A stretch of DNA of 34,543 nt from a virus, in the IMG/VR virus record IMGVR_UViG_3300038701_003660, positions 1-34,543 of that record; one strand, given 5' to 3'. The translations under genes and the position numbers were made by a program. The notes under the pieces are model-generated. The model was given only the letters and a program-made list of their open reading frames with translations. It was not told where the DNA came from and ran no database searches. Each line of letters starts with the position of its first letter. Position 1 is the stretch's first letter. Of the stretch, positions 5,643 to 33,132 are shown one piece after another.

Positions 5643-6011
5643 TCAGAGGGTGATGGGCAGCCAGAGCTGCAAGGTGACGGGGGTGGCGCTGGCGTCGGTG
5701 ACGGTCACCGCGACCTGCCATTGGCCAGGGCCTTGGGCGTGCTCGAAGGCCAGGGCGGTGAGCTCGCCGGCCGCGGACAGGGGCGCGAGGGCATCTCGGA
5801 CCCGGTCCTCGAGGTCCTCGGCGAAGGTGGCGGTGAGGAGCCCACGCCGCAGCTCGTGCAGCGTGCTGCCGAAGTCGGGATCCCAGAAGCAGCTCCCCCG
5901 CTCGACCAGCAGGCGGTTGAGGCAGGCCTCGGCCAGGGCGTTGTCGACGGGCACGAAGTCGCCATCGGCGCCCACCAGGAAGTCGTGCGTGCTGGGGTCG
6001 AGCTGGAGCAT
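5643..6011 (-). CDS. Baseplate protein, Mu gp46-like (gp25/gpW family)
   Basis: 122 residues, a usual size for the Mu gp46 and T4 gp25/P2 gpW sheath-initiator group. Family features seen are an N-terminal G.DGDF-type stretch, a CFWDPDFGSTLHEL motif near residues 41-54 (the conserved region after the first helix), and a C-terminal beta strand pair. The start overlaps the stop of the spike gene by one base. It should attach the first sheath ring to the baseplate. Confidence 0.88.
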   Translation of the reverse strand: MLQLDPSTHDFLVGADGDFVPVDNALAEACLNRLLVERGSCFWDPDFGSTLHELRRGLLTATFAEDLEDRVRDALAPLSAAGELTALAFEHAQGPGQWQVAVTVTDASATPVTLQLWLPITL

Positions 6012-6568
6012 CAGCCCACCTCCACGGTGCTGGAGCCTTGACCGACCCGCCCCAGGGACGCAGGGACGCCTGGCACGGTCGCGGGAGCCCCGGCCGCGAG
6101 CGCTGAGAGCGCCGCGACCACCGCGGACATCCAGGCCGACATCTCCGTGGTGGCGTCGACACCATCGCCAAGGCGCGCCGCTGCGGCGCCGCCCCCGTTG
6201 ATGAGCACCCGGCCGTCGGGCTTGAGGCGGACCTGAGCCCCGCCAGGCGCCCAGACGACGACCTCATCGTCCTCAAGGTCCTGCGGGGCACGGTCGCGGT
6301 CATCGCCCGCCACCACGACGAGGTGCTGGCTGCTGCCGCCCACTGCGACCATCACGACCTCGCCCGCGGTCTGACGGGAGCGGAAGCCGAAGAGCTGAAC
6401 GACCTCCGCGTTGGGGTGGCGCTCGCCGTCGAGAGCCTCCACCGACACCTCGGGCGCCGCCTGCGTGGCCCCGCCTGCCTGCACCCGGGCCCTCACCGCC
6501 ACCCGCAGGCGTCGCAGGTGCCGAAGCACCCGGGCATCCAGCGCGCGCCACGTCTTGGCGTCCATCAT
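6011..6568 (-). CDS. Baseplate spike, Mu gp45-like
   Basis: 185 residues. An N-terminal helix (ARVLRHLRRLRVAVRARV) is followed by an OB-fold-like region with PNAEVVQLFGFRSR and GEVVMVAVGG, then short glycine-rich beta repeats and a hydrophobic tail. This matches Mu gp45/gpV-type spikes, the membrane-piercing tip of the tail. It lies between gpP and gp46, exactly as in Mu, and overlaps the gpP stop as ATGA. Two tandem ATGs (6568 and 6565) are possible starts. Confidence 0.87.
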   Translation of the reverse strand: MMDAKTWRALDARVLRHLRRLRVAVRARVQAGGATQAAPEVSVEALDGERHPNAEVVQLFGFRSRQTAGEVVMVAVGGSSQHLVVVAGDDRDRAPQDLEDDEVVVWAPGGAQVRLKPDGRVLINGGGAAAARLGDGVDATTEMSAWMSAVVAALSALAAGAPATVPGVPASLGRVGQGSSTVEVG

Positions 6569-7614
6569 TCCCCCCGAGGCGGGAGGATGGCCCCCCGCTC
6601 ATGCAGCGTCAGACTGCTGGTGGTCCCGCCATCGCGGCTGCGAGAGAGCTGCACCGCGCTGACCCAGTAGACGCCCGCGAGCCCGGTGTGCTGGTCGTCT
6701 ACCTGCACGAGGGTGTCAGGAGCCCAGCAGCGCCCCGCTGCAGGCCCATGGCCCGCCACGACGTAGCGCGCGACCAAGCCCTCACCCCGTCGGCTCCCGA
6801 TCTCCCACTCCGCGCGGTCTCGGGCCTCGGCCGAGGTCTCGGCTTCACCGTCGACGATGACCAGCGGCCGACGCAGCCCCAGGGCGACCAGGGCGTCATC
6901 CACCGCCTCCCCCCGCAGTGAGGGCGCCGCTCCACGGCCTCGGCCGCTACCCTGGCCCAGCACGACGACCGGGCTGCGGCGCTGGGAGGTCTGCCAGGTG
7001 ACGTCTGCCTGCAGCACGTTGTTCTGCCGACGACGCTCATCGGTGTAGCTGCAGAGACGGCCGAGGACGGGCTGGTCGTAGTTGGGCCGGATGAAGCGCA
7101 GCCCCTCGGGGGTGGCGTGCACCAGCAGCCGGCGGCGCGCCGCGTGCCGCGTCAGCAGCTCCCAGAAGGTCTCGCCCGGCTCTGGGCGGACGACGTCGAG
7201 GGTGGTCTCGGCCTCAGGCTCCGCCTCGACCACCTCGAGGGCGACGCCGAGCTCGCTGATGGCGAGCTCGGCGAGGCGCACCAGTGAGATGGAGCGCCAG
7301 GTCCACCCCACAGGGGTGCTGCAGTCGACCAGCGGGGCGACCCGATCCCGTCCCTGCAAGGTCAGGCGGGTGCCGCCCCGATTGACGCTGACCTGGCGGC
7401 TATCGACCCGCCCCCGCAGGACAACCTCTTCGCCGGCCAAGAGCGTCAGAGACGCGCCCTCGCCGATGGCGCTGATCTGATCTGGCGTGGGGTGCGCGAC
7501 CTCCAGTGACCAGCCGTCCGCTGGGGTCAGTAGGTCCCGGACGAGCTCGTAGCGGGTCCAGTTGGCATAGGTCACCCCGTTCGCAACGGCGCGGATCCCC
7601 GTACTACTCGGCAT
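6565..7614 (-). CDS. Baseplate hub protein, Mu gpP (gp44)-like
   Basis: 349 residues, close to the size of Mu gpP (T4 gp27-like hub). The N-terminal half has the expected ladder of strands (EEVVLRGRVDSRQVSV, TRLTLQGRDRVAPLVDCS) and the helix used by the family to build the central ring (LVRLAELAISELGV). The middle has GETFWELLTRHAARRRLLVH, the conserved block before the second barrel domain. The C-terminus ends in a strand with SSLTLHERGA. The start overlaps the upstream gene by 11 bases. It forms the channel ring on which the gp45 spike sits. Confidence 0.88.
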   Translation of the reverse strand: MPSSTGIRAVANGVTYANWTRYELVRDLLTPADGWSLEVAHPTPDQISAIGEGASLTLLAGEEVVLRGRVDSRQVSVNRGGTRLTLQGRDRVAPLVDCSTPVGWTWRSISLVRLAELAISELGVALEVVEAEPEAETTLDVVRPEPGETFWELLTRHAARRRLLVHATPEGLRFIRPNYDQPVLGRLCSYTDERRRQNNVLQADVTWQTSQRRSPVVVLGQGSGRGRGAAPSLRGEAVDDALVALGLRRPLVIVDGEAETSAEARDRAEWEIGSRRGEGLVARYVVAGHGPAAGRCWAPDTLVQVDDQHTGLAGVYWVSAVQLSRSRDGGTTSSLTLHERGAILPPRGE

Positions 7615-8023
7615 GATGAGCGACCTCCGTGCCAGCGGGGATGCGATGTGGCCGACGCAGCGAGGGGTTCAGGTCCAGCAGGTCCTCGGCCCGTCCGGCG
7701 TCGCCGTAGAGCTCCAGCGCCAGGTCGAGGAGGCCGCGCTCCCGTGTCAAGGTGCGCCGGAGCACGCGCCGGCCGTCAGACAGCGCCTCGAGCAAGTCGA
7801 GTTGTCGCGCCGCCAGGGCCTGCAAGGCGCGCACGAGGGGCTCGGCCTCTACATCCCACTCCGCGAGCGCCTGCTCCATCGCCACCAGCGCCAGCGCGCG
7901 CACCTCAGCGATGCGCTGCTCGGCCTCGGGCCGTGGGAGCACCTCACCCGCCTGCACGAAGGCAGCGAGCTCGAGGGCCGCCAGGCGGGCAGCCTCGACG
8001 GCCTCTCGCGTTGACGCGCTCAT
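7604..8023 (-). CDS. C-terminal half of a split gpN-type tail/DNA-circularisation protein
   Basis: 139 residues. A helical N-terminal part is followed by a C-terminal block with LALELYGDAGRAEDLLDLNP and a final RIPAGTEV. This resembles the LysM-like end of Mu gpN-family proteins, where 'YGDA..A..L...N' precedes 'P.....G'. Its start overlaps the stop of the gene carrying the matching N-terminal domain (ATGA at 8020-8023). Together the two products equal a shortened gpN, which joins the tape measure to the hub. The split is real in this sequence: the two frames differ and each has its own start. Confidence 0.7.
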   Translation of the reverse strand: MSASTREAVEAARLAALELAAFVQAGEVLPRPEAEQRIAEVRALALVAMEQALAEWDVEAEPLVRALQALAARQLDLLEALSDGRRVLRRTLTRERGLLDLALELYGDAGRAEDLLDLNPSLRRPHRIPAGTEVAHHAE

Positions 8024-11306: not shown

Positions 11307-12749
11307 TCAGACGCTCAGCAGGCGGACAACCGCCGCCAGCACGTGGAGGCCGGGAACAATCTCGGCCGGAAGGTCGATGTCGACGCGACTGGTGTCGCTG
11401 CCGTTGCGCTCGACGACCAGCGCCGCGGCGTTGGCTTCGACGTCTTGGATGACGGCAGCCTCCTCCAGGTCGAGGAGCGCGGCGTAGACGGTGGCGCGAA
11501 TGGTGGCGGGGCTCGCCGTGAACTCGGTGGTGGCGACATCGGCGAAGAGCATCCGCCGGTAGGTCTCGTCCAGGCGCTCCCGGACGACGCGCCGGACGTA
11601 GTCCAGCGAGCGGATGGTCGTGACGTCGAGGAGCGCGGCGTCCTCGACACCCACGTCGGAGGTCAGGTAGGTCGAGATCGCGCGGAGCACGACGACGTCG
11701 CCCGCGTGGGTGACCACGCCAGGCGCGATGCCAGCGCGGAGCAGCACCGCCAGCTCGCTCCGCAGATACCGATCACTGATGGGCGGCGAGGCGACCCCCT
11801 CCAAGGGCAGCCCGTTGAGCGGGCGGCCTGGGTGGCTCGCCGAGGCCATCAACGCGCCGTAGGCGGCGCTCACCTCCGGCATCCACGTAGGCGAGCCCTC
11901 CAGCCCAAGGATGCTGATGCGCCCGCTGTTTCTGGCTGCGGCGAGGGTGGCCAGGTTGCTGATGGTGTCGTCCACGGCGAGACAGGCCACCCCAGGCCGC
12001 TGGTTGATGCCGTCGCTGGCGTCGTCCAAGTAGGTCTGGACCTTGGCGAGCTCGCCCGTGGTGGTGATGGACGGCACGTAGACGTCCCACAGCCCCTCGC
12101 CCAGGCCGTCGAGGGCGTCCTGGGTGTCTGGGTCGTTCGCCCCGCTGCTCATCGCGGTGACTGTGATGGTCACCCCCGTCCCGTCAAAGTCGGCGGCCAG
12201 GTCGATGCCGTTGCCCAGCGTCCCGCCGTTTTTGGCGGTGACGGTGACCGTTGAGGTGCTGATGGAGGAGGTGACGGGGAGGTCGGGGGCCGCCCCGATG
12301 GCCGCCTCGAGCAGGGCGGCGATGTCGGTGTTGGAGTCGCCCGCTGAGACCGCGACCTCGATGAGGTCCCCGCCAATCCAGGCCCGCAGGGTGCCCGCCG
12401 TCGCCGTGGTGACTGCGATGGCAAAGGAGCCGGTCGCAGCGACGGCCGAGCCGTCGTCCTCGAGAGGAACGGCCCACAGCTCCGCGAAGTAGGGACTGGC
12501 CGCGAGCGCTGCGGCGGCCATGCGGTGCAGGACGGACCCCTGCCCGAAGCGAAGGATGGCCTCGGCCTCGCCGCCGGAGAGCTGCACGGGTGTGGTGGCC
12601 GCAGCATCGCCGTCGCTGGTCATCTGCCCGACGAGCAGGAGCTTGTAGTCGGTGGATGGCAGGCCGCGGTTCCGCAGCCGGGTGTCGAGCTCGACGTAGG
12701 TGCCGGGGATGCTGACGTTGGCGGGGATCTGCTGAAACTCGATGCTCAC
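11307..12749 (-). CDS. Contractile tail sheath protein, Mu gpL-like
   Basis: 480 residues, as in Mu gpL. The start has the family's IPANVSIPGTYVE motif near residue 8. A beta-rich insertion domain follows at about residues 100-200 (ATAGTLRAWIGGDLIEVAV, STVTVTAKNGGTLGN). The C-terminal sheath domain contains LTSDVGVEDAALLDVTTIRSLDYVRR and ends with a strand-helix-strand around residue 470, used to hook neighbouring subunits. It overlaps the gp38-like gene by four bases. It polymerises around the tube and contracts on adsorption. Confidence 0.92.
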   Translation of the reverse strand: MSIEFQQIPANVSIPGTYVELDTRLRNRGLPSTDYKLLLVGQMTSDGDAAATTPVQLSGGEAEAILRFGQGSVLHRMAAAALAASPYFAELWAVPLEDDGSAVAATGSFAIAVTTATAGTLRAWIGGDLIEVAVSAGDSNTDIAALLEAAIGAAPDLPVTSSISTSTVTVTAKNGGTLGNGIDLAADFDGTGVTITVTAMSSGANDPDTQDALDGLGEGLWDVYVPSITTTGELAKVQTYLDDASDGINQRPGVACLAVDDTISNLATLAAARNSGRISILGLEGSPTWMPEVSAAYGALMASASHPGRPLNGLPLEGVASPPISDRYLRSELAVLLRAGIAPGVVTHAGDVVVLRAISTYLTSDVGVEDAALLDVTTIRSLDYVRRVVRERLDETYRRMLFADVATTEFTASPATIRATVYAALLDLEEAAVIQDVEANAAALVVERNGSDTSRVDIDLPAEIVPGLHVLAAVVRLLSV

Positions 12750-17230: not shown

Positions 17231-19662
17231 CGGGTCTCCTTCACACCAAGCGCCTCTGTCCAGGCGTCGGGAAACTGGGCCCAGTCGACCTCGTGCGGCG
17301 ACAGAGCAGGGTTGGCTCGCCAGCCATGGTCGGGCAGCATGGGCTCGGCCAGGCCGCCGTCGCGGCTGGGCCAGCTCGGCAGGGCCTCTTCCACCGACAA
17401 GCCCCGGCGGACGAGCTCCGCCTGAGTCAGCGCCCTCACGCCGCACCGGCATCCATGGCCGTTTGGCGGGTACCAAGTCAGCCAGATCGCATGTCCCGCA
17501 CGCCAGGCCTTCCCGTTCATGGCTTCGTGTTGGTTGCGGGTCCGCTCGTCGATGATGGCGTCGTAGAGCCAGAACGGCCTCGCCTCAAGCATCGCGGGAC
17601 GCGTCATCTCCCGATAGCGTCCGACCTGATAGGCCGTGGCCATGTGGTTGCGGAAGACCAGCTCGATGTACCAGGGGCGCGTGCCCGCCCCACCCGAGAG
17701 GCCGCTCAAGCGCCACTCTTCACGATACCGGTCCTCGAACTCCGCGAATGTGTCGCCGTCCTCCAGGGCCATCTCCAGTGCGTAGTGCACGCCCTGGGCC
17801 GCCCTCAAGGTCGTGAAGTGCACGCCCGCGAACGCGCGATGCCGCGCCTCGGCGGTCAGGCCAGGCAGCTCCTCGGTGAGGGTGGGGATGCGCTCACGCC
17901 ACCAGTCCAAAGCCTCGCGAGGCGGCACGTCGGGCCACTCTCCGAGGGCCTCCTCATCCTCGAGCACCTGCACCCGGCCGATGAGCTCCGCGGTGAGCAT
18001 CTCGTCGGCCAACTCCTCAGCGAGGTCTTCCAGCTCCAGCGTGCGCAGCGCCTCCACCAGCGCCGGCCCCACACCGCTGATGCTGCCCGCCGCCACCAGG
18101 TGCTCGTCGAGGTGCTCGAGGACCCGTTGCCAGCCTCCCGCGCTGTGCTCCGCGAGCGCTTTGCGGACGGCCACCTCCAAATCAGCGCGGAGATGCGGGG
18201 TCTCTGCGAGCTCATGGGCGCCGCAGACATGCACAGCCTCTCGCAGCTCCCTCGCCTCAGCCCATCGCGCATCGCGGCGCTGCTCGGCTGCGGACTTAAC
18301 CCGAGGTTTCGGTGGCTCCTGGGCGTCCTGCCCGCCCTGGTAGACCTCCTCGCCTTCCTCGGGCAGGGGGATCCCGAAGCGCTCATGCACATGCTGCCGC
18401 GGCAGCGCGACGCCGATGCCGTGGAGGTCGACGTACATCTTCGCCACAGCCGCCCGGTCTTCCGGCGGCGTGGCGTCCAAGACGAGGCGAGGGTAGCGGT
18501 GCTGTTCACCGAACTGGTGGCGCACCGCGACCCTGACCAGGTCCCGGGTCAGGGTGTCGCTGAGCTGGGCGGCGTCGGACTCCAAGAGGTCGTGGCGCAC
18601 GTTGTCGTGGACGTTGCCCAGCGCCTGGGTACCCCGGCGCCCCTCCTCCGTGGTCAGCGTCTGCCCGAGCACGGCCTTTGATTGGGCCCGGTCGGCCCAG
18701 GTCACGAGCTTCTCGTAGACCTCGACGGAGCTCCGGGTGCTGGCGGCCTGCACGAACTCGATGTCCGTGTGCGTCGGGATCATCGCCGCCGCGTCCGCGC
18801 CCAGCGACCGGAGCGCTGCGAGCAGCTGGGCCCGGTCGTCTTGGCTCGTCGTCGCGTCGTACTTCCCCACCCGGATGGGGCAGCCGTAGGTCTCCGCGAA
18901 GATCAGCCAGTCCTTGAGCGTGTAGTTCTTGAAGAGGTAGGCCCACCCAAGGGGTCGGCCGAGGCCCCGACGGGCCGCGTGGAGACCACACTTCGCGCGT
19001 GGCTGGTGCAGCACCCAGGCGCCGGGCTGCAGGGGCTCGCCTCGGGTGGGCGCCTCTGGGGTCCGAATCGCCCAGCGCATGGGGTCCTCACGCTGTGGCA
19101 CCAGCCACGTCGCCGGGCGGCCCACCAGGCGTCGCACCCGCACCTGACCTCCACGCACCTCCCAGTCGATCTCCGCTGCGCTGTAGCCGAAGTAGATGCC
19201 GTCCAAGAGGTCGCTCAGCGCCTCACGCCACCCCTCCACCCCCTGAATGAGGTCGGTGACCCACTCGGCGATCCGCTGGTCGCGCCGCGTGCGTCCACCA
19301 GGCACCACCCGCCACGGGAGCTGCCCCACGCCCATCGTGCGGGTGTTGAGCACCGCGACGAGGTGCAGGTCCCGGTCCAACATCTCCCCGAGAAGCTCGG
19401 CCTGCTCGACGACGTAGCCGTCTGATGCCTGCCGAAGGTATCGAGCGAGCCGCTGGGGTGTCAGGCCCACGCCTCGGCGACTGCTGCCCACCGTGCGCGG
19501 CCCCCACCAGCTGGCGTCGTGATGGGCGGGGGCGGGTTTGACCAGCCCACCACGCACCGGCTCTCGCGCCTCGAGGGGGACGCGGGCGGCGGAGGCCGCT
19601 GGGCCCGATGACAGCGTGAGCGGCTGCCGCTTGAGGCCGAACAAGTCGCCGAAGAAGCCCAT
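17227..19662 (-). CDS. Fused portal (DUF935, Mu gp29) and head morphogenesis (MuF, gp30) protein
   Basis: 811 residues in one frame. The ATG at 19662 has AGGGAG upstream and overlaps the terminase stop (TGATG). Residues ~60-450 are the DUF935 portal: VAVLNTRTMGVGQLPWRVVP near 102-121, FGYSAAEIDWE near 158-168, LFKNYTLKDWLIFAETYG near 243-260. A helical linker covers ~455-590. Residues ~590-760 are MuF-like: a FAGVHFTTLRAAQG block near 611-624, FRNHMATAYQVGRY near 670-683, DERTRNQHEAMNG near 705-717 and a PPNGHGCRC motif near 732-740. In Mu these are two proteins. The fusion puts the portal and the minor head protein in fixed stoichiometry. Confidence 0.93.
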   Translation of the reverse strand: MGFFGDLFGLKRQPLTLSSGPAASAARVPLEAREPVRGGLVKPAPAHHDASWWGPRTVGSSRRGVGLTPQRLARYLRQASDGYVVEQAELLGEMLDRDLHLVAVLNTRTMGVGQLPWRVVPGGRTRRDQRIAEWVTDLIQGVEGWREALSDLLDGIYFGYSAAEIDWEVRGGQVRVRRLVGRPATWLVPQREDPMRWAIRTPEAPTRGEPLQPGAWVLHQPRAKCGLHAARRGLGRPLGWAYLFKNYTLKDWLIFAETYGCPIRVGKYDATTSQDDRAQLLAALRSLGADAAAMIPTHTDIEFVQAASTRSSVEVYEKLVTWADRAQSKAVLGQTLTTEEGRRGTQALGNVHDNVRHDLLESDAAQLSDTLTRDLVRVAVRHQFGEQHRYPRLVLDATPPEDRAAVAKMYVDLHGIGVALPRQHVHERFGIPLPEEGEEVYQGGQDAQEPPKPRVKSAAEQRRDARWAEARELREAVHVCGAHELAETPHLRADLEVAVRKALAEHSAGGWQRVLEHLDEHLVAAGSISGVGPALVEALRTLELEDLAEELADEMLTAELIGRVQVLEDEEALGEWPDVPPREALDWWRERIPTLTEELPGLTAEARHRAFAGVHFTTLRAAQGVHYALEMALEDGDTFAEFEDRYREEWRLSGLSGGAGTRPWYIELVFRNHMATAYQVGRYREMTRPAMLEARPFWLYDAIIDERTRNQHEAMNGKAWRAGHAIWLTWYPPNGHGCRCGVRALTQAELVRRGLSVEEALPSWPSRDGGLAEPMLPDHGWRANPALSPHEVDWAQFPDAWTEALGVKETR

Positions 19663-21269
19663 CACCACGCTCCCTTGCCGAAGTGGCTGCGCCGCCCCGG
19701 CACATGCTCGACGTGCGCCAGGCCATGCCCCCGGTGGGAGCGGTGTACGAGCTGTCGGCACATCTCGAAGACGTCGAGGCCGTCCTTCTTGCCGTGGGGG
19801 TAGGCGTCGCCCTGGCGACGCAGCGCCACGCAGCTCCCGTCGTCCGGCAGCCTGAACTGGCCACGCCGAGCGAGCGCGGCCAGCCCCCGGAGGCGCATGT
19901 CCTTGCTCTCCCCCTGGTAGACGATCTGCTCCCAGCCGATGAAGAAGCCCTGGGCACCGCCCCGGAGCGTCAGCAGCACCGTCATCAGGCGCTGAAAGCC
20001 GATGGCCTCGATGCCGTGTAGGTCGCAGTCCTCCTCGGCCGCGATGGCCAGCACCCGGTCGACCAGCTCCATCTCGTCGCAGATGTTCAGCAGCTCGATG
20101 CGGTGAGCCAGGAAGTGGCCGTCGACGAAGCGCGCGATGCCGACGGCCTGGTCGTCGCCGCCGCCGAGGGCGGGGTCGAAGGCCAGCACCTTGATGCCAG
20201 GTCGCCGCGCGTACTCCAGCCGGCTGTACGTGCTCCAGCTGGTGAAGATGCGGCCCTCGGCGGAGGGCTCCTGGTCCTCCATCTCCGGCCCGAACGTCTC
20301 GGGGTCGTCGTTGAGCTCCGCGAGCAGGTCCTCGGCGGGCCAACGCTCGGGCCAGGCGGAGGTCTTTCGCCAGTCGTCCCAGCAGTGGTAGCGCAGCTTG
20401 CGGAAGCGCGTAAACCGCTTGGGATCGCAGAAGCGGACGATCTGGCAGTCGTGCCAGCTGGGCGTCCCCACCATGAAGACACGGGACACGCCGGGCTCCA
20501 GTCCGAACTTCACGCCGCCGTTGATCTTCCGCGTCGCCGCGTCGCGCTTGCCGGTCTGCTCAGGCCGTCCAGCGGTGCGCTTGGAGTCGAGGTCGTCCAT
20601 CAGCGCCAGCGTGGGCCGTCTGGGGCCATGCTTGCCGCCGCGGATGGCGCCCTCCATCCCGAAGGCTCGCACGCGGACGTCGGTGGTGGTAACGAAGTCG
20701 TGGTAGTTGACTCCCTCGTCTCGGACCAGCACGCCCCAGTCCGAGCGCAGACGGTCATTACGCTCCAGCTCGAGCTTGATGGACTCGGTGAACTCCTGCG
20801 CTGTCGCGAAGGTCACCGCGATGATCTGGATGTAGGGGTCCCAGTGCAGGGCGATGTCGCGCCCTTGCTCCTCCATGACCTCATGGATGGCCCGGAAGAG
20901 TGCCGGGTCCTCCGCCTCCAGCGTGCCGTCCTGCCACTGCCGCAGGACGGCACCGCAGACCGCCTGGTGGAGCCCATAGGCGAAGGTGATCACGGTGGAC
21001 TTGGAGAAACCGCGCGGAGCCCGCACCGCGATGAAGCGGTCTGCCTCCAAGGCGCGATACCACTCAAGGTGCATCGCCGCGGGGACCTCGCGGAAGTAGT
21101 GGGGCAGGTAGGTCCGGTTGAAGACCTCCGGCAGCACGATGGCCTCAGCCTTGCGGCGAGCCATGGCCTCAGGGCTGTCCCCCTCGAAGACCGTGGTGCG
21201 GAGCTCCGCGAGGCGCAGCAGCGCCTCCGCTCGGGACCAGAACTGCTTCTGGGTCGGTCCCCGCCCCAT
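19662..21269 (-). CDS. Terminase large subunit, Mu gp28-like
   Basis: 535 residues. ATPase domain: a Walker A-like RAPRGFSKST at residues 83-92, a Walker B-like LALMDDLD at 221-228 and a GTPSWHD coupling motif near 268. Nuclease domain: AFDPALGGGDDQ at 363-374 (first acidic D365), GIEAIGF near E421, and KDGLDVFEM with D499 as probable third acid. It overlaps the small-subunit gene by one base and the portal gene by one base. It packages DNA by a headful mechanism, by analogy to Mu. Confidence 0.93.
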   Translation of the reverse strand: MGRGPTQKQFWSRAEALLRLAELRTTVFEGDSPEAMARRKAEAIVLPEVFNRTYLPHYFREVPAAMHLEWYRALEADRFIAVRAPRGFSKSTVITFAYGLHQAVCGAVLRQWQDGTLEAEDPALFRAIHEVMEEQGRDIALHWDPYIQIIAVTFATAQEFTESIKLELERNDRLRSDWGVLVRDEGVNYHDFVTTTDVRVRAFGMEGAIRGGKHGPRRPTLALMDDLDSKRTAGRPEQTGKRDAATRKINGGVKFGLEPGVSRVFMVGTPSWHDCQIVRFCDPKRFTRFRKLRYHCWDDWRKTSAWPERWPAEDLLAELNDDPETFGPEMEDQEPSAEGRIFTSWSTYSRLEYARRPGIKVLAFDPALGGGDDQAVGIARFVDGHFLAHRIELLNICDEMELVDRVLAIAAEEDCDLHGIEAIGFQRLMTVLLTLRGGAQGFFIGWEQIVYQGESKDMRLRGLAALARRGQFRLPDDGSCVALRRQGDAYPHGKKDGLDVFEMCRQLVHRSHRGHGLAHVEHVPGRRSHFGKGAW

Positions 21270-21724
21270 CAGTCCTCCCCGACGAGGTGGGCCATCAGCC
21301 CTGGCAGGTGCGGCGTGAGCGCGGTCAGGAGGTTGCGGTCCACCTCACCGAGGCGCTCCACCAGCGCATCGACGACGTCGAGCACCACCTGGCGGCGGAT
21401 GCGCTCATCTTGGGCCTGCTGTTCCTCGCTGCGGCCCGCCTTGTCGACCCGCTCCCACGCGTAGACGTCCTGCGCCCAGTCCCGACGCTTCGGATCGTTG
21501 ATGGCCTTGAGCGCCCGGTCGAGCGCGAGGTTGCGGAGACGCCGCCGTCGGGCGGTGTAGTCCATCTCCCCCACGCGCTGCTCCGCCCACCCCTCACGCG
21601 CGCCGCGCTTTTGGAGCGTGCTCTGGGCGATCCCGATGGCGTCAGCGACGTCCCGGTAGGCCATGCGCTCGACGACGTAGAGTCGCCGCGCCTCCTCCCA
21701 GGTCTCAGGGGAGTAGCCCCTCAT
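21269..21724 (-). CDS. Terminase small subunit-like HTH protein
   Basis: 151 residues. An N-terminal helix-turn-helix spans about residues 6-45 (ARRLYVVERMAYRDVADAIG, then STLQKRGAREGW), the arrangement of phage small terminases that bind the packaging site. The rest is helical and charged, suited to oligomer formation. The start overlaps the stop of the DUF2730-like gene as ATGA and the gene ends one base into the large-subunit start. In Mu the small subunit is gp27 at the same place. Confidence 0.82.
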   Translation of the reverse strand: MRGYSPETWEEARRLYVVERMAYRDVADAIGIAQSTLQKRGAREGWAEQRVGEMDYTARRRRLRNLALDRALKAINDPKRRDWAQDVYAWERVDKAGRSEEQQAQDERIRRQVVLDVVDALVERLGEVDRNLLTALTPHLPGLMAHLVGED

Positions 21725-22095
21725 TCGCGGCTCTTGGACTGCGCGACAAGCTCGCGGCGCAGCTCAGCGAGCTCGCGGCGCAGGGCGGCGATGCTCTGAT
21801 TGATGAGCTGCATGTCGACGCGCAGCTCCGCGCGGTACTCGGCGAGCTCTGCGCGTCGGGCGTAGACCTCCCGGGTGTTCTGGAGGCGATCTTCGAGGCT
21901 TCCGACGCGGTCGTCGAGGTTCTGAGCGTTGCGACGCCACGTCCCGAGGCCAACGCTGGCGACCAGGGTGAAGACGAGCTGGACAGCGCTGGCCGCCCAT
22001 AGAGCGTTCATCCCGCCATCCTCGCCAGCGAAGGCGAAGGGGGGCGCAGCGAGCGAGAACAAGGCTACCGCGAGGCAGCGGAGGAGCAGGGACAT
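21721..22095 (-). CDS. DUF2730-like membrane protein, first gene of the late operon
   Basis: 124 residues. A signal-peptide-like start (LLLRCLAVALFSLAAPPFAFA, with AFA before GE at about residue 23) is followed by a membrane helix at about 30-52 and a long C-terminal coiled coil (RVGSLEDRLQNTREVY and later heptads of R/E/L). Mu gp25 (DUF2730) has the membrane helix and coiled coil, at the same position ahead of terminase genes. An ATG at 22011 would give that shorter form without the signal-like part. A lysis role (spanin-like) is possible but unproven. The ribosome site GGAG lies in a small hairpin at 22101-22112. Confidence 0.7.
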   Translation of the reverse strand: MSLLLRCLAVALFSLAAPPFAFAGEDGGMNALWAASAVQLVFTLVASVGLGTWRRNAQNLDDRVGSLEDRLQNTREVYARRAELAEYRAELRVDMQLINQSIAALRRELAELRRELVAQSKSRE

Positions 22096-22199: not shown

Positions 22200-22742
22200 T
22201 TAACGGCGGACGTGCACCACGAAGCGGTCGTAGGGCTTCCGGTTGATGCGCTCGCGGAAGTGGTTGAACTCGCAGGGGAGTTCGATGACGGAGCCCTCGA
22301 AGCTCACCGGCTCAATACGTCGCCAATCCCCTTGGATTGCGTTCTGACGAAGCTCGCCCACAGACGTTTCCAGAGCCGTCGTGTGCTCCTCTATGTAGCG
22401 CTCGTAGAAGTGGGCGTTGATCTGGAGTTCTGGGCCCCACTCGTTGGGGTTGATCTCCAGGCCGATGTCCAGCAGCAAGGGCTCCACCGGGGAGAGGGTG
22501 GGATCGCAGTCGACCACCCAGGTGCGAACCTCGCCGACCTGCCACTCGTCAGAGGTGTCATCGGTGGTGCCGCTGTCGTCAGGCGCGCTGTCATCGACGG
22601 CGCTGTCGTCCGGTGTGCCTGTGTCCTCGGAGTCCGTAGGCTCCCCGGAGTCCAGCTCCTTGGGGACGGTGTCCACCATGAGGGCTGAGTCGACCAGATC
22701 TCCGACAGCAGCGCAACCGAATAGCAACCAGAAATACATCAT
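22200..22742 (-). CDS. Lipoprotein with acidic linker, likely moron
   Basis: 180 residues. The N-terminus is a short lipoprotein signal (MMYFWLLFGC) with the lipobox cysteine at residue 10. Residues ~30-65 are a D/S/T/G-rich linker of DSG/DDS repeats, then comes a ~110-residue folded domain with W, Y and F residues and a basic end (DRFVVHVRR). No catalytic motif is recognised. The linker style is common in lipoproteins of Myxococcota-like bacteria. The gene sits between the repressor terminator and the late operon with its own promoter, GGGAGG ribosome site and no overlap with neighbours. This suggests expression from the lysogen and a role at the cell surface. Confidence 0.75.
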   Translation of the reverse strand: MMYFWLLFGCAAVGDLVDSALMVDTVPKELDSGEPTDSEDTGTPDDSAVDDSAPDDSGTTDDTSDEWQVGEVRTWVVDCDPTLSPVEPLLLDIGLEINPNEWGPELQINAHFYERYIEEHTTALETSVGELRQNAIQGDWRRIEPVSFEGSVIELPCEFNHFRERINRKPYDRFVVHVRR

Positions 22743-22750
22743 TCGCCTCC

Positions 22751-22795
22751 CGTGAGTACTCGTTCACGTATACCTGAGTTCCACCACCCACACAA
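22751..22795 (-). promoter_or_regulatory. Promoter of the lipoprotein gene with inverted repeat
   Basis: Read on the minus strand: TTGTGT (22795-22790), a 17-base spacer and TATACG (22772-22767). The match is moderate (3 of 6 and 4 of 6). A CGTGA/TCACG inverted repeat (22751-22768) overlaps the -10 and could be an operator. GGGAGG follows before the ATG. Confidence 0.4.
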
Positions 22796-22820: not shown

Positions 22821-22845
22821 CAAAAGTAACACGGTGTTACTTTTG
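22821..22845. terminator. Bidirectional terminator-like palindrome
   Basis: A perfect inverted repeat with 12-base arms around one central base: CAAAAGTAACAC, G, GTGTTACTTTTG. The A4 and T4 flanks of the GTAACA/TGTTAC stem make it suitable for termination in both directions. It includes the repressor's TAA stop and separates that gene from the lipoprotein promoter. An operator function is a less likely alternative. Confidence 0.7.
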
Positions 22846-23259
22846 CTCCGGTTCGCCATCGGGCCTGCGTAGTGCTATTCCGGCAATGATTCCATCTATA
22901 TAGCGCTCCGCTTCGCTGACCGCGTCTTCCCCCCCGACATCGAGCAGTTCCTCGAATCTGTGCGCCCCTCGCAGCCATACCGCGCGGCGCCCTACTGACA
23001 TGGCGCCGGCCTTGCTACTTGCCTCAAGCAGCTGCTCCAGGACGCTTTGGGGAGGCGACACCACGCCTGCATCCATTCTGACACCGGATGATTGCTGCTC
23101 CAGTCTCGTCATGGCGGCCATGAGCTTCTTGCTTGGTGGCCTCTGGCCTCGAGCAACCGCGCTCACGTAGGAGCTACTAACACCTGCCTCTTGCGCCAGA
23201 TCGGCCTGGCTCGCAAAGATCCGGTCCAACCTTCCGGCGATATCGAGCTGATTACTCAT
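22837..23259 (-). CDS. XRE-type repressor, probable immunity (c-like) protein
   Basis: 140 residues. An N-terminal helix-turn-helix at about residues 17-40 contains QADLAQEAGVSSSYVSAVARG, the XRE pattern. The C-terminal ~70 residues form a helical domain probably used for dimerisation. It is transcribed leftward, away from the Ner-like gene, across a 62-base intergenic region holding a promoter and palindrome, as in repressor/Cro switches. No ribosome-binding site precedes the ATG at 23259, so the message may be leaderless or weakly translated. The stop lies inside the terminator palindrome. It is not related in sequence to Mu c as far as I can see. Confidence 0.8.
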   Translation of the reverse strand: MSNQLDIAGRLDRIFASQADLAQEAGVSSSYVSAVARGQRPPSKKLMAAMTRLEQQSSGVRMDAGVVSPPQSVLEQLLEASSKAGAMSVGRRAVWLRGAHRFEELLDVGGEDAVSEAERYIDGIIAGIALRRPDGEPEQK

Positions 23260-23321: not shown

Positions 23322-23576
23322 ATGACGACGACTCAGTTGAAGCAACGCATGCTCGGGCTGGGCCTGACCGGTCGCCAGTTGGCAACAGCCATCAACGCCA
23401 GCCCCTCTCAAGTCAGCGACGTTCTGCACGGCCACCGTAAAACGCCTTGGATTCGCCGTGGCATCGCTGGCCAGTTGCAGCTCAGCTTCGAGCTTGCTTG
23501 GGGTGTCCCCGACCCTGGCGTCGACCGCCTTCCCGCTGGCCGACCCGGACAGCAGCAGGCTGAGGCGGGGGTTTAG
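23322..23576 (+). CDS. Ner/Cro-like HTH regulator
   Basis: 84 residues. A helix-turn-helix at about residues 15-40 reads LTGRQLATAINASPSQVSDVL, followed by HGHRKTPWIRRGIAG, a form common in small early regulators of Mu-like phages. The ATG at 23322 is preceded by AGGAGG at optimal distance. It is the first gene of the rightward early operon and divergent from the repressor, the position of Mu ner, which shuts down early and repressor transcription. The final ~15 residues are low complexity. Confidence 0.75.
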   Translation: MTTTQLKQRMLGLGLTGRQLATAINASPSQVSDVLHGHRKTPWIRRGIAGQLQLSFELAWGVPDPGVDRLPAGRPGQQQAEAGV

Positions 23577-25567: not shown

Positions 25568-27238
25568 ATGACGCTGGAGGAGGCCGCATACGAGCGACTG
25601 CTGAACGACGTCCGGTCCCAACCGGGCCGGGCCGGTCGGCTGGTCGCTGCCCTGGCCGCGAAGCTCGGCTGCTCCAAGTCGACCGTGTACCGCCAGCTCC
25701 GCGCTCGCGGCTGGACCAGCGGGCGCAAGCGGAGGCGAGACGCTGGCCAGTGCGTTGTCGCCAAGGAGGACGCCGAGCGCTTGGCGCGCATCCTCGCCAT
25801 GGGCCGTAACAAGCGCGGCCAGCTCAACATCCCGGTGCGGGAGGTCACCCGCATCGCTGAGGAGCACGAGCTGCTCGAGGGCGACGCGAGCTACTCCACC
25901 ATCCTCCGGGCGCTGAACGTCCACGGCCTCGGCCCTCGGCACCTCAAGGCGCCAGAGGCCGGCATCAGCCGGGTCTCCCTCCACCCCAACGCGGTCTGGT
26001 TCCTGGACATCAGCGTCGGAATCCAGTGGTACTTCCGAGACAAGGACGGCCGGCGCCTGCAGCTCTACCGAGACGCCGGGGCCCGGTTCTACGAGGGCAA
26101 GGTCCAGAACTTTCGGGCCCTGCGTCAGATCCTCCACCGCTACGTGGTCACTGACCACCGGACGGGCGCGTACTACGTCCGCTACTACTACTCCAGCGGA
26201 GAGCGAAGCGAGGACGTCGTCGACTTCCTCTGGCACGCCATGTCGGCCAAGGGACTCGACGCCTTCCCCTTCCGCGGCGTCCCCCGGACCATCGTGGTCG
26301 ACAAGGGCAGCGCCTTCCGCGCGGCCATCGTCCGCGAGCTCCTCGTCGGTCTGGGGGTCGAGGTGCAGGAACACCGCACCAAGAACCCCAAGGCTTCCGG
26401 CAGCGTCGAGTCGCGTCATGGCCATTGGCAGGCGTCGTTCGAGGGTCGCCTCGCCAACTGCTACGCCAGCGACCTCGACGAGATCAACGACTGGGCCCTG
26501 CGCTTCGCGGCGACCGCCCAGGGCACCCGCGTCCACAGCCGCCACGGCCACACCCCCATGGCGGCCTGGTCGACCATCGCCTCGGATCAGCTCGTCGAGG
26601 CCCCCGACCGGGCCACCTTCTTCCGGCTGGCCACGACCACCCCCGACACGCGCGTTCTCGACGGGAGGCAGTTCATCAGCGTCGGCGGCCGGGAATGGCA
26701 CATCAGCGGCCTCCACACCTACCCCGGGCAGAAGATCACCTATCGGCTCACCCCCTTCTCTGACCCCGGCCTTCGCGCCTGGGATGAGCACGGCCGCGAG
26801 CTCGCCGCGCTGGAGATCGCCCGCGACGAGATGGGCATGCCCCTCACCGGCCCCCGCCACGTCTTCGGTTCCGAGGATGAGAGCGAGAAGGGCGCGTCGC
26901 TCGCGACCACCCCAGCGCAGCAGGTCCTCGCCGACATCGAGGTCGAGCCCGAGAAGATCGCCGCGATGTTCGACCGCCTGGACGACCAGCTGGGGGGCCT
27001 GTCCTACCTGCCCCGCCAGGGTCAGGCTTGGACACCTCCAGAGGAGGTCGAGGAGCGTGCCGCTGCCCCCGCGCTCTCCTCGCTTGAGGCGCGTGAGCAG
27101 CTCTTCGATCTCCTTGGTCGCCCGCTCGACGATGAGGAGTACGCCTGGTGGCATCCCCGCCTTGAGGCGGGCGTCACCACCGACCAGCTCCAGACCCTTT
27201 TCGACACCTTCACCCAGCGCGGCACAGCCGCGCGCTGA
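25568..27238 (+). CDS. Transposase A, MuA-like DDE recombinase
   Basis: 556 residues (MuA is 663). An N-terminal HTH with AAKLGCSKSTVYRQLRARG at about 30-48 would bind the element ends; a second helical DNA-binding region follows at ~65-130. The RNase H-like core carries the probable catalytic triad: D147 in WFLDIS, D245 in IVVDKGSA and E281 in GSVESRHGHW. The C-terminal ~120 residues contain a helical region suited to contacting the B ATPase. It carries out DNA cleavage and strand transfer in integration and replicative transposition. The start is three bases after the DUF3102 stop. Confidence 0.95.
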   Translation: MTLEEAAYERLLNDVRSQPGRAGRLVAALAAKLGCSKSTVYRQLRARGWTSGRKRRRDAGQCVVAKEDAERLARILAMGRNKRGQLNIPVREVTRIAEEHELLEGDASYSTILRALNVHGLGPRHLKAPEAGISRVSLHPNAVWFLDISVGIQWYFRDKDGRRLQLYRDAGARFYEGKVQNFRALRQILHRYVVTDHRTGAYYVRYYYSSGERSEDVVDFLWHAMSAKGLDAFPFRGVPRTIVVDKGSAFRAAIVRELLVGLGVEVQEHRTKNPKASGSVESRHGHWQASFEGRLANCYASDLDEINDWALRFAATAQGTRVHSRHGHTPMAAWSTIASDQLVEAPDRATFFRLATTTPDTRVLDGRQFISVGGREWHISGLHTYPGQKITYRLTPFSDPGLRAWDEHGRELAALEIARDEMGMPLTGPRHVFGSEDESEKGASLATTPAQQVLADIEVEPEKIAAMFDRLDDQLGGLSYLPRQGQAWTPPEEVEERAAAPALSSLEAREQLFDLLGRPLDDEEYAWWHPRLEAGVTTDQLQTLFDTFTQRGTAAR

Positions 27239-28692: not shown

Positions 28693-29352
28693 ATGCCCAG
28701 AACCCCCACCCCCGGCATCACGCCGGCCCAACGCCGCCTCATCTTCGGTCAGCTTCGCCGCCTGGCGCAGCTCTCCGGCCTCTCCCAAGAGGACCTCGAC
28801 GACCTACGCCGCCGCCTGACCCGCGAGGTGTCGGGCCAAGACAGCCTGCGCCACCTCAGCTTCAACGAGGCCGCAACGGTCGCCCAGCGGATTCGCGCGG
28901 AAGTCCAGCGCTTCACTCCCAAGCGGCCGGAGGCATCCACCAAGCGCTCTAAGCGTGACACGGAGCCTGCGAAGTCCATCACGCCCCGGCAGCAGCAGCA
29001 CCTGACCGGCCTGTTCGATCTCCTCGGCTGGGAGAAGCTGCGGGACCGGACTGCGTTCTGCGAGCGTCAGATCGGCCGGACCTGGCCCCAGAACAACGCT
29101 GAGTTCACCAAGGTGTCCACACCGCTCACCGAGATGGTGCTGCGCGCGACGGACCCCGCTGAGGTGCAGCGCCGCGTCGAGGCCCTCCTCGACCACCCCG
29201 CGCTCGACGCTTGGAAGACCAACTTCATCGCTGACCTGCACCGGCAGTTTCAGCGCGCTGAGCGCGAGGGTGGAGAACGGGGCGGCATCCTCACAGCCGG
29301 CAAGCTGCTGAAGCTGGCCGAGGCTGAGCGGTGGGTGTTGTCCCATGGCTGA
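28693..29352 (+). CDS. Mu gp16/GemA-like protein (DUF1018)
   Basis: 219 residues. The N-terminal half follows the DUF1018 pattern: ITPAQRRLIFGQLRRLAQLSG near residue 9, SGQDSLRHLSFNEA near 47 and a VAQRIRAEVQRF helix. The C-terminal half repeats a similar ITPRQQQHLTGLFDLLGW and has FCERQIGRTWPQNNAEF. GemA of Mu modulates host gene expression and topology during early growth. It lies after the transposition genes, with an eight-base overlap to the sigma-like gene. The ribosome site is buried in a hairpin. Confidence 0.8.
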   Translation: MPRTPTPGITPAQRRLIFGQLRRLAQLSGLSQEDLDDLRRRLTREVSGQDSLRHLSFNEAATVAQRIRAEVQRFTPKRPEASTKRSKRDTEPAKSITPRQQQHLTGLFDLLGWEKLRDRTAFCERQIGRTWPQNNAEFTKVSTPLTEMVLRATDPAEVQRRVEALLDHPALDAWKTNFIADLHRQFQRAEREGGERGGILTAGKLLKLAEAERWVLSHG

Positions 29353-30238
29353 GAGCTACGAAGAGCTGTCGCAGGAGCTGCGCCGCTTGTGCTGGCGGGC
29401 GCTCGGCCTGCTGGGCTGGGACTGGCGGTGCGCCGACCTTGCCGGACAAGATCGCGGGCGCCTGGTCGGCCCCTGGTGGGGGCACTTCATCGCCCGCCTG
29501 GCCGAGCTGCGGGAGACCTCGCTGCCTGGCCTTCCTGGCGCCAGCCTCGAGGACGCGCTCGCCTGCGTGCGCCGGGTGGACTCCATCGCGTCCACGCTGG
29601 TCCAGGCCGAGCTCCGCGTCGTAAGGCGTCAGACCTATGCGTTCCGGGGCATCCCCTCCGTGGAGCTGCTCGCGGTGGCCTGGCTGGCTGGCCATCGGGC
29701 GGCTTTCAACTGGGACCCGGCACGTAGCAGCTGGCCGAGCTGGCTCCGGCAGAACGTCCGATGGCGCCTCGTCGAGCACGTGCGGGCCCTCCGCGACGAC
29801 TTTGCGCGGCCCCAAGCGGCGCTCAGCGACCATCACCAGATCAAGGGTGCCCCCACCGACGACGAGCGCCGTTCTGCCGCCGAGCTCGGCTGGCCACGCT
29901 CGCGCCTATGGGCAGCCCGGCGACCTCTCCGCGCGCTGCGCCTCGAACAGCCGAGTAGCACCAGCGGCGCGCCGCTGATGGCCAGGATCGCCGACAGGAA
30001 GCCGACCGCAGAGCGGCTGCTGATGTCGTGGGCGAAGCAGCGCCGCCTCGCGAAGGCGCTCGGCAAGCTCCCCCCACGGCAGCGAGAGGTCCTCCGGTGC
30101 CTCTTCGAGGAGGGGTTGACGGTCACCGCCACCGCTCGCCGCATGGGCCTCGGCCGAGGGACCGTCCACCGGGAGCGGCGCCTGGCGCTCCGCGCGCTCC
30201 GCGAGTCGCTCTGGCACGTCGCTGAGGAGTCGCCATGA
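29345..30238 (+). CDS. Sigma70-family factor, probable late activator
   Basis: 297 residues. Residues ~88-150 match sigma region 2: LRVVRRQTYAFRGIPSVELL, then a GHRAAFNWDPARSSWPSWLR block, where sigma70 has 'DLIQEG..GL..A...FD...G..FSTYA.WWIRQ'. A short region-3-like HTH lies at ~160-200. Residues 240-290 are region 4: LPPRQREVLRCLFEEGLTVT, ATARRMGLGRGTVHRERR. The first ~85 residues are unrecognised. It occupies the place of Mu mor/C, which activate middle and late genes using host sigma70, so this protein may direct polymerase to the late operon. No promoter motif for it could be deduced. Confidence 0.78.
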   Translation: MAESYEELSQELRRLCWRALGLLGWDWRCADLAGQDRGRLVGPWWGHFIARLAELRETSLPGLPGASLEDALACVRRVDSIASTLVQAELRVVRRQTYAFRGIPSVELLAVAWLAGHRAAFNWDPARSSWPSWLRQNVRWRLVEHVRALRDDFARPQAALSDHHQIKGAPTDDERRSAAELGWPRSRLWAARRPLRALRLEQPSSTSGAPLMARIADRKPTAERLLMSWAKQRRLAKALGKLPPRQREVLRCLFEEGLTVTATARRMGLGRGTVHRERRLALRALRESLWHVAEESP

Positions 30239-30453: not shown

Positions 30454-30862
30454 GCACAGACGCCGTGTGGAGCGCTGCACCTCGGCCATGGTCTGCGAGA
30501 GCTGCCCGTTGCCGCTGGTCTGCGGCGCTCTTCGCGAGCCAGCCCAGAGCGTGAAGGTCTGGCTCCTCGGTGCACCCGCCTGGGTGCTCGGGAGACAGGG
30601 CGCTGAGGCCATCTTCCTTAGGCCATCGACAGGCCGAACGCTGCACCGGACCCCCACCAGCGACCTCGCCTACCACCTCCTCGCCGTGCTCCCGCCCATC
30701 CACGCCCTGGGCTGGCGCTGCCCCTGGTGTCGACGGCCGCCCTGTCCACGACCTGACGGCGCTGCCTGCCGCCGAGCTCAGCCCTCACCCCCTCGCGGCT
30801 CGGTTCAAGCCGAGTTGTTTAGCCCGCGGGCTCGCCCCGCTTCACCCCCGGAGACTCTATGA
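30440..30862 (+). CDS. Cysteine-rich small protein, unknown
   Basis: 140 residues from a GTG start that follows GAGGAGG at good distance. Cysteine pairs near residues 20-30 (CESCPLPLVC) and near 95 (CPWC, CP) suggest metal binding. The last ~40 residues are proline- and arginine-rich and probably disordered. It overlaps the basic protein gene by 14 bases and the next gene by four. The start could also be the ATG 19 codons downstream. The function is unknown. Confidence 0.45.
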   Translation: MLPLEHRRRVERCTSAMVCESCPLPLVCGALREPAQSVKVWLLGAPAWVLGRQGAEAIFLRPSTGRTLHRTPTSDLAYHLLAVLPPIHALGWRCPWCRRPPCPRPDGAACRRAQPSPPRGSVQAELFSPRARPASPPETL

Positions 30863-31524
30863 CTCGCCCCCTTCGCATCTATGTGGCCTCATCTTGGAGA
30901 AACGAGGAGCGCCAGCAGGCGGTCGTTCAACTCCTCCGTCGCCTCGGCCACGACGTCTACGACTTCCGCCACCCCGCCGAGGGCGTCCCCGGTTTCAGCT
31001 GGAGCGATGTCAGCCCCCAGTGGGAGTCGTGGACCCCTGAACAGCAGATCGAGGCCCTCACGGATCCGCGAGCCCTCAAGGGGTTCGCGCGGGACTACTT
31101 CGGCATGATTGAAGCCGACCTCCTGGTGTTGGTCTTGCCATGCGGTCGAAGCGCTCACCTCGAGGCGGGCTGGGCGGCCGGTCGCGGCATCCCCACCATC
31201 GTCATCCTCGCCGAGGGCGAGGAGGCGGAGCTTATGTACAACCTGCTCTCCGAGCCGATCTCCGACCTTGAGGACCTGATCGACTTGGTAGATGACATGG
31301 CCTCCACGTCGGTGGTCTGCTCCCCTCTCAGGTCACTGGAGAGCACCCTCCACGATGACCTCGTCGAGTTCTTGTCTCGGGGTGGCTCCCCCGCCAAGCT
31401 GCTCGCCCACATCGATGAGGAGCACCTCTGGGCCGCCCTGCGTCACGACGTCGAGGTGACCCTGCCGGCCAAGGGCGGCCATGAGCGGACGCGACCGGAC
31501 CCGAAGACGCTGGAGAGGTCATGA
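30859..31524 (+). CDS. Nucleoside 2-deoxyribosyltransferase-like protein
   Basis: 221 residues. The N-terminus RIYVASSWRNEERQQ and the central EADLLVLVLPCGRSAHLEAGWAAGRG (residues 85-110) match the Rossmann-like NDT/DUF4406 fold, with E102 in the place of the catalytic glutamate. A GIPTIVIL strand follows. NDT enzymes exchange or hydrolyse bases on deoxynucleosides. The C-terminal ~90 residues are extra and helical. The substrate is unknown; phage relatives are implicated in nucleotide salvage or base modification. The start overlaps the cysteine-rich gene by four bases. Confidence 0.7.
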   Translation: MTRPLRIYVASSWRNEERQQAVVQLLRRLGHDVYDFRHPAEGVPGFSWSDVSPQWESWTPEQQIEALTDPRALKGFARDYFGMIEADLLVLVLPCGRSAHLEAGWAAGRGIPTIVILAEGEEAELMYNLLSEPISDLEDLIDLVDDMASTSVVCSPLRSLESTLHDDLVEFLSRGGSPAKLLAHIDEEHLWAALRHDVEVTLPAKGGHERTRPDPKTLERS

Positions 31525-32928: not shown

Positions 32929-33132
32929 ATGAGCTCATGCGCTATCAGCAAGCGCCACGTCACCGTCCGCCAAGCCGCGGCACTATTGTGCTGCTGTCAA
33001 CGCACGATCTATCGGCGTATCCACGATGGGAGCCTCCCGAATACGCGCCGGCTACGCGGCGGCTACTTGATTCCGCTCAGCGACCTGGAGGCCCTGGCCG
33101 TTCCGCTGACATCCGGGGAGCCCCACCCATGA
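32929..33132 (+). CDS. Excisionase/MerR-type small HTH protein
   Basis: 67 residues from the ATG at 32929, five bases after GGGAGG. The pattern is the excisionase-family winged helix: VTVRQAAALLCCCQRTIYRRIHDG, then RRLRGGYLIPLSDLEAL, where relatives have 'G.yri...dle.l'. Three cysteines in a row in the turn are unusual. The stop overlaps the methylase start (ATGA). It could regulate the segment or act in DNA remodelling. Confidence 0.75.
   Translation: MSSCAISKRHVTVRQAAALLCCCQRTIYRRIHDGSLPNTRRLRGGYLIPLSDLEALAVPLTSGEPHP

Follow-up and report, generated by a model that had tools for sequence, protein, structure and literature searches.

Mor/C is regarded as one of the core markers of transposable phages. 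Mor and C, as set out in passages of three papers (PMC4287176, PMC4390567, PMC4461284), work with the host sigma-70 polymerase. The transposable prophages of Leptospira are without Mor/C, a loss that the authors, in the passage cited, call surprising (PMC8705779). Phage late sigma factors exist elsewhere, notably the highly diverged gp55 of T4 (PMC2988020). In the open literature we found neither a sigma factor described in the mor slot nor a replacement of Mor by sigma.

The DNA analysed here, referred to as the window, is the full virus record IMGVR_UViG_3300038701_003660, which is linear and 34,543 nt (34.5 kb) long. It shows the features of a B3-like transposable phage, with a DDE transposase A, a MuB ATPase and a remote GemA in a rightward arm of early genes, and a divergent arm in which the late genes run leftward. 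The features on which the argument depends are the following:

19662 to 22095, minus strand: start of the leftward late operon, with an ORF (21721-22095), a TerS-like gene (21269-21724) and TerL (19662-21269)
22837 to 23259, minus strand: repressor-like HTH gene at the divergent early/late junction (HTH_3, 27 bits)
23322 to 23576, plus strand: Cro/Ner-like HTH gene, the first early gene (PHROG 1468, E 9.3e-7)
25568 to 27238, plus strand: B3-type transposase A, rve/DDE (PHROG 310, E 1.8e-51; 30% to phage B3)
27463 to 28617, plus strand: MuB-type transposition ATPase (PHROG 296, E 3.6e-26; AAA_22)
28693 to 29352, plus strand: GemA/gp16-like gene (PF06252, E 6.7e-4, 21 bits, below the cut-off; PHROG 286, E 9.5e-8)
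29345 to 30238, plus strand: predicted diverged sigma-70-family protein of 297 aa in the mor slot (intact ORF, profile matches, codon composition)
32929 to 33132, plus strand: HTH_17 DNA-binding gene, excisionase/MerR-like, a rival candidate for the late activator (PF12728, 37.5-38.1 bits, above the cut-off)

The repressor and Cro-like genes form a divergent pair near 23.3 kb. Terminase (TerL matches PHROG 38, E 3.6e-36), portal, protease, major head, sheath, tape measure and baseplate hub genes make up the leftward late arm. At its head lies a lipoprotein-like ORF (22200-22742, minus strand) with an acidic repeat rich in DSG/DDS; this ORF and the GC content of 69% presumably hint at a host of the myxobacterial type. 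The closest relative (L087) is still remote, at 35% for the transposase, 34% for the ATPase and 33% for GemA, the last figure comparing its GemA-position gene with the gene directly upstream of the sigma-like one. Measured on these sequences, the element is far from everything with which it was compared, and the GemA homology of the upstream gene is real but remote.

The 3' end of gemA overlaps the start of the sigma-like gene by 8 bases, and the 3' end of the sigma-like ORF overlaps the next ORF in an ATGA. Its codon GC (0.74/0.56/0.87) is of the coding type and resembles that of the gemA and transposase genes. Because of the two overlaps and a codon composition like that of its neighbours, the gene is probably translated within the early operon. 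The same operon also holds a nucleoside deoxyribosyltransferase-like gene (PHROG 12607, E 3.8e-48) at 30859-31524 (plus strand), two or three genes beyond the sigma-like one.

Across a comparison set of 50 Mu/B3-like records, with Mor counted at E<=1e-3, Mor is present in 40, 38 of them above the cut-off. Of the 36 relatives that have both genes, 32 have Mor directly 3' of GemA and read in the same direction. In phage B3, GemA followed by Mor are the last early genes. The Mor model (PF08765) has no match anywhere in the window, in agreement with the earlier note, which found no Mor/C-like activator. Taken together, the order found in relatives, the order in B3 and the lack of Mor in the window give good support to that note's further proposal that the gene, coming after the gp16-like gene, holds the position of mor. 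Both the position and the lack of Mor are strongly supported, and the slot is here occupied by a sigma-family protein instead. None of the 50 relatives has a sigma region 4 above the cut-off, and some of the weak region 4 matches among them, in G048, G034 and G026, overlap Mor itself. Relatives devoid of Mor are a minority of about 10 records, some of them incomplete and one with a divergent Mor. This divergent protein (locus L349, 263-784, from the reverse strand of G020 6000-7900) lies directly after gemA and scores 21 bits, below the Pfam cut-off, so simple Pfam counts under-report Mor.

In sigma factors, region 2 provides core binding and recognition of the -10 element, its core-binding part being what defines a sigma, and the helix-turn-helix of region 4 binds the -35 element. 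In the protein encoded in the window the two regions map as follows:

29588 to 29794, plus strand: putative sigma region 2, residues 82-150 (in register but weak, p about 0.01-0.03)
30038 to 30211, plus strand: sigma region 4, residues 232-289 (PF04545, PF08281)

Region 4, in the C-terminal third, matches PF04545 with an E of 3.5e-12 (46.1 bits, cut-off 24.1) and PF08281 with 34.8 bits (cut-off 25.7). The NCBIfam model of the sigma-70 superfamily, TIGR02937, aligns to residues 85-289 with 55.7 bits (cut-off 42.9). The C-terminal third by itself gives 50 of these bits and five variants with a shuffled N-terminus score 47.7-49.1, so the real N-terminus contributes only 6-8 bits. On these profile matches the identity of region 4 is beyond doubt. 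None of the subfamily models comes near its cut-off with this protein.

The evidence for region 2 is of another order. PF04542 has no match in the protein at E<=10, nor do the curated region 2 models when the N-terminal part is searched alone. When the full protein is aligned by hhalign to an alignment of fetched sigma factors, the two are colinear over residues 82-289 with a probability of 96.4%, and after removal of region 4 what is left can still be aligned to region 2, weakly and in an unchanged register. The empirical chance of such a result for the region-4-deleted part is 3 in 300 shuffles and 8-14 in 400 natural sequences (p about 0.01-0.035). The corresponding HMMER test gives 19-80 in 5000 shuffles (p about 0.004-0.016) and 21-210 in 2409 natural pieces, where p varies by model from 0.009 to 0.09. 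Residues 123-150 (WDPARSSWPSWLRQNVRWRLVEHVRALR) resemble ECF region 2.3-2.4 by eye, and the core-binding motif of region 2.2, DxxQE, is degenerate, with one acidic residue kept. The earlier note had described regions 2 and 4 alike as recognisable; the description stands for region 4, while for region 2 it has to be reduced to a weak signal in register. Judged from the alignments and models, region 2 is likely to be present, though unproved.

AlphaFold, run with no alignment, gives a poor model (pLDDT 42-43). When the model of the full protein is searched with Foldseek, every hit of ranks 1-27 is a chain from an RNA polymerase initiation complex and, judged by chain letter and length, a sigma subunit, matched over 260-351 columns with E from 0.016 to 0.68, no single one being significant. 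The fragment 64-297 finds SigB first and SigH second. These fold matches are weak because the model has a pLDDT of about 42.

No close homologue of the sigma-like protein was found in viral contigs, phage records, plasmids, 275 fetched loci or 18 prophage host genomes; the plasmid search returned one sub-domain match. The 395 genomes of one phylum likewise held no homologue, and gave one match to an ordinary ECF sigma, in region 4 only. Two crafted scans with sigma patterns found none, and of two scans of genome contigs one was empty and the other returned distant Mu-like prophages, none carrying the gene. Two loci considered as homologues were rejected, one (L310) being an ECF sigma whose likeness is limited to region 4 and the other (L311) a multi-HTH protein. 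With no homologue found there is no evidence from conservation, and the gene is an orphan, a single case on one contig.

A two-box motif common to the late-strand gaps of the window did not rise above shuffles. The ECF-like promoter GGAACTC-N16-GTACTC at 22754-22782 (minus strand) was rejected because it occurs at chance level and because the start would fall inside a ribosome-binding site. GTGGAAC, tried as a late motif, was also set aside; it has 5 occurrences, all on the late strand, against 3.5 by chance. With only a single genome to examine, and a protein for which no homologue was found, the absent promoter motif is uninformative, not negative.

Our preferred reading, to which we assign a probability of a little under one half (about 0.48), is that a highly diverged sigma-70-family factor took over the position of mor and directs late transcription by sigma replacement. 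The protein would be made together with the early proteins, from the far end of their operon and with its translation coupled to gemA. We infer that its region 2 works and that, through region 2/4, it would bind the host core RNA polymerase; by virtue of its own promoter specificity it would then direct the polymerase to one or more leftward late promoters near 22.1-22.8 kb, at the late stage. Sigma replacement would in this way do the job of Mor/C, which instead activates the host sigma-70 polymerase. Such a late switch is plausible; what the sequence itself shows is the anatomy, namely the ORF, its region 4, its place in the operon, the lack of Mor and the synteny of the slot in relatives.

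The firm support for region 4 alone would also fit a DNA-binding activator in which a sigma-region-4-like HTH is joined to an unrelated helical N-terminus, comparable to late regulators of the ArpU/RinA type, and which would activate the host sigma holoenzyme with no replacement of sigma. The weak region 4 matches given by the HTH of Mor itself favour this explanation. Nevertheless we regard it as rather unlikely, as the region 2 signal is in register and colinear with region 4 and the fold matches cover whole sigma subunits, not region 4 alone. It is improbable that the gene is a moron, a sigma taken from a host or a phage that serves to reprogram host genes (stress, dormancy) and whose place beside gemA is accidental. 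In favour of this, some phages do encode sigma factors that change the physiology of their host (PMC9429907), and within its phage family the gene stands as an orphan; against it, the slot is that of Mor in 32 of the 36 relatives with both genes, the gene shares bases with gemA, and Mor is missing from the phage.

Another candidate, missed in the earlier note, lies in the window itself. Of 48 relatives, three have HTH_17 above the cut-off; all three are devoid of Mor, and no record having Mor contains it (Fisher p 0.007). The closest relative, L087, has a double HTH_17 protein directly after gemA (12241-12588), a second relative (G004, locus L347) a single one in the same place, and the third (G037, locus L350) has one shortly after gemA. 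Lysis genes come after the HTH_17 gene in G004 and L087. HTH_17 after gemA in phages devoid of Mor is possibly a second type of Mor substitute, and the HTH_17 protein of the window might be the late activator, having replaced Mor in a wider branch, with the sigma-like gene as an extra early gene in another role. However, the window gene lies 2.7 kb past the sigma-like gene. Immediately 3' of it a gene for a D12-class adenine methylase begins, at about 33129, and the 310-base gap in front of the HTH_17 gene contains a promoter-like site (32616) and a terminator-like hairpin (32787). The domain, moreover, is generic and the cases are three only. We weigh this explanation lower because the gene is outside the gemA-adjacent slot, and consider it distinctly unlikely.

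If sigma replacement does operate here, the same regulatory decision would have been rewired from activating to re-targeting the host polymerase, with the rest of the operon unaltered. We tentatively extend this to the suggestion that a Mu/B3-like phage may have swapped its activator-based late switch for a complete sigma of its own, and that the mor slot may be a general, replaceable "late-switch socket", filled by HTH_17 in other relatives without Mor. The genomic rule that would follow is to look after gemA for the late regulators of Mor-less transposable phages.

Among known systems, Mor/C of Mu and B3 (PF08765) shares its slot with the sigma-like gene, immediately behind gemA where the early operon ends, and the role is presumed to be the same. 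Mor/C proteins are, in the passages cited, small dimeric activators that use the host sigma-70 holoenzyme (PMC4287176, PMC4390567), whereas the sigma-like protein has no Mor homology. The Leptospira prophages lack Mor/C and yet keep TnpA, TnpB, GemA and the divergent B3-like layout, as the window does; unlike in the window, no sigma substitute is reported for them in the passages cited (PMC8705779). Set beside the ECF and group 3 sigma factors, the protein has a region 4 and a 2.3/2.4 text similar to those of ECF sigmas, and differs in having about 80 additional residues at its N-terminus, a linker that is long and a degenerate region 2.2. In gp55 of T4, region 2 is likewise only distantly discernible (PMC2988020). 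That protein has a sigma domain 2 and lacks domain 4, and is aided by gp33 and the sliding clamp, whereas in the sigma-like protein it is region 4 that stands out clearly, and its phage, unlike T4, is presumably a temperate transposer.
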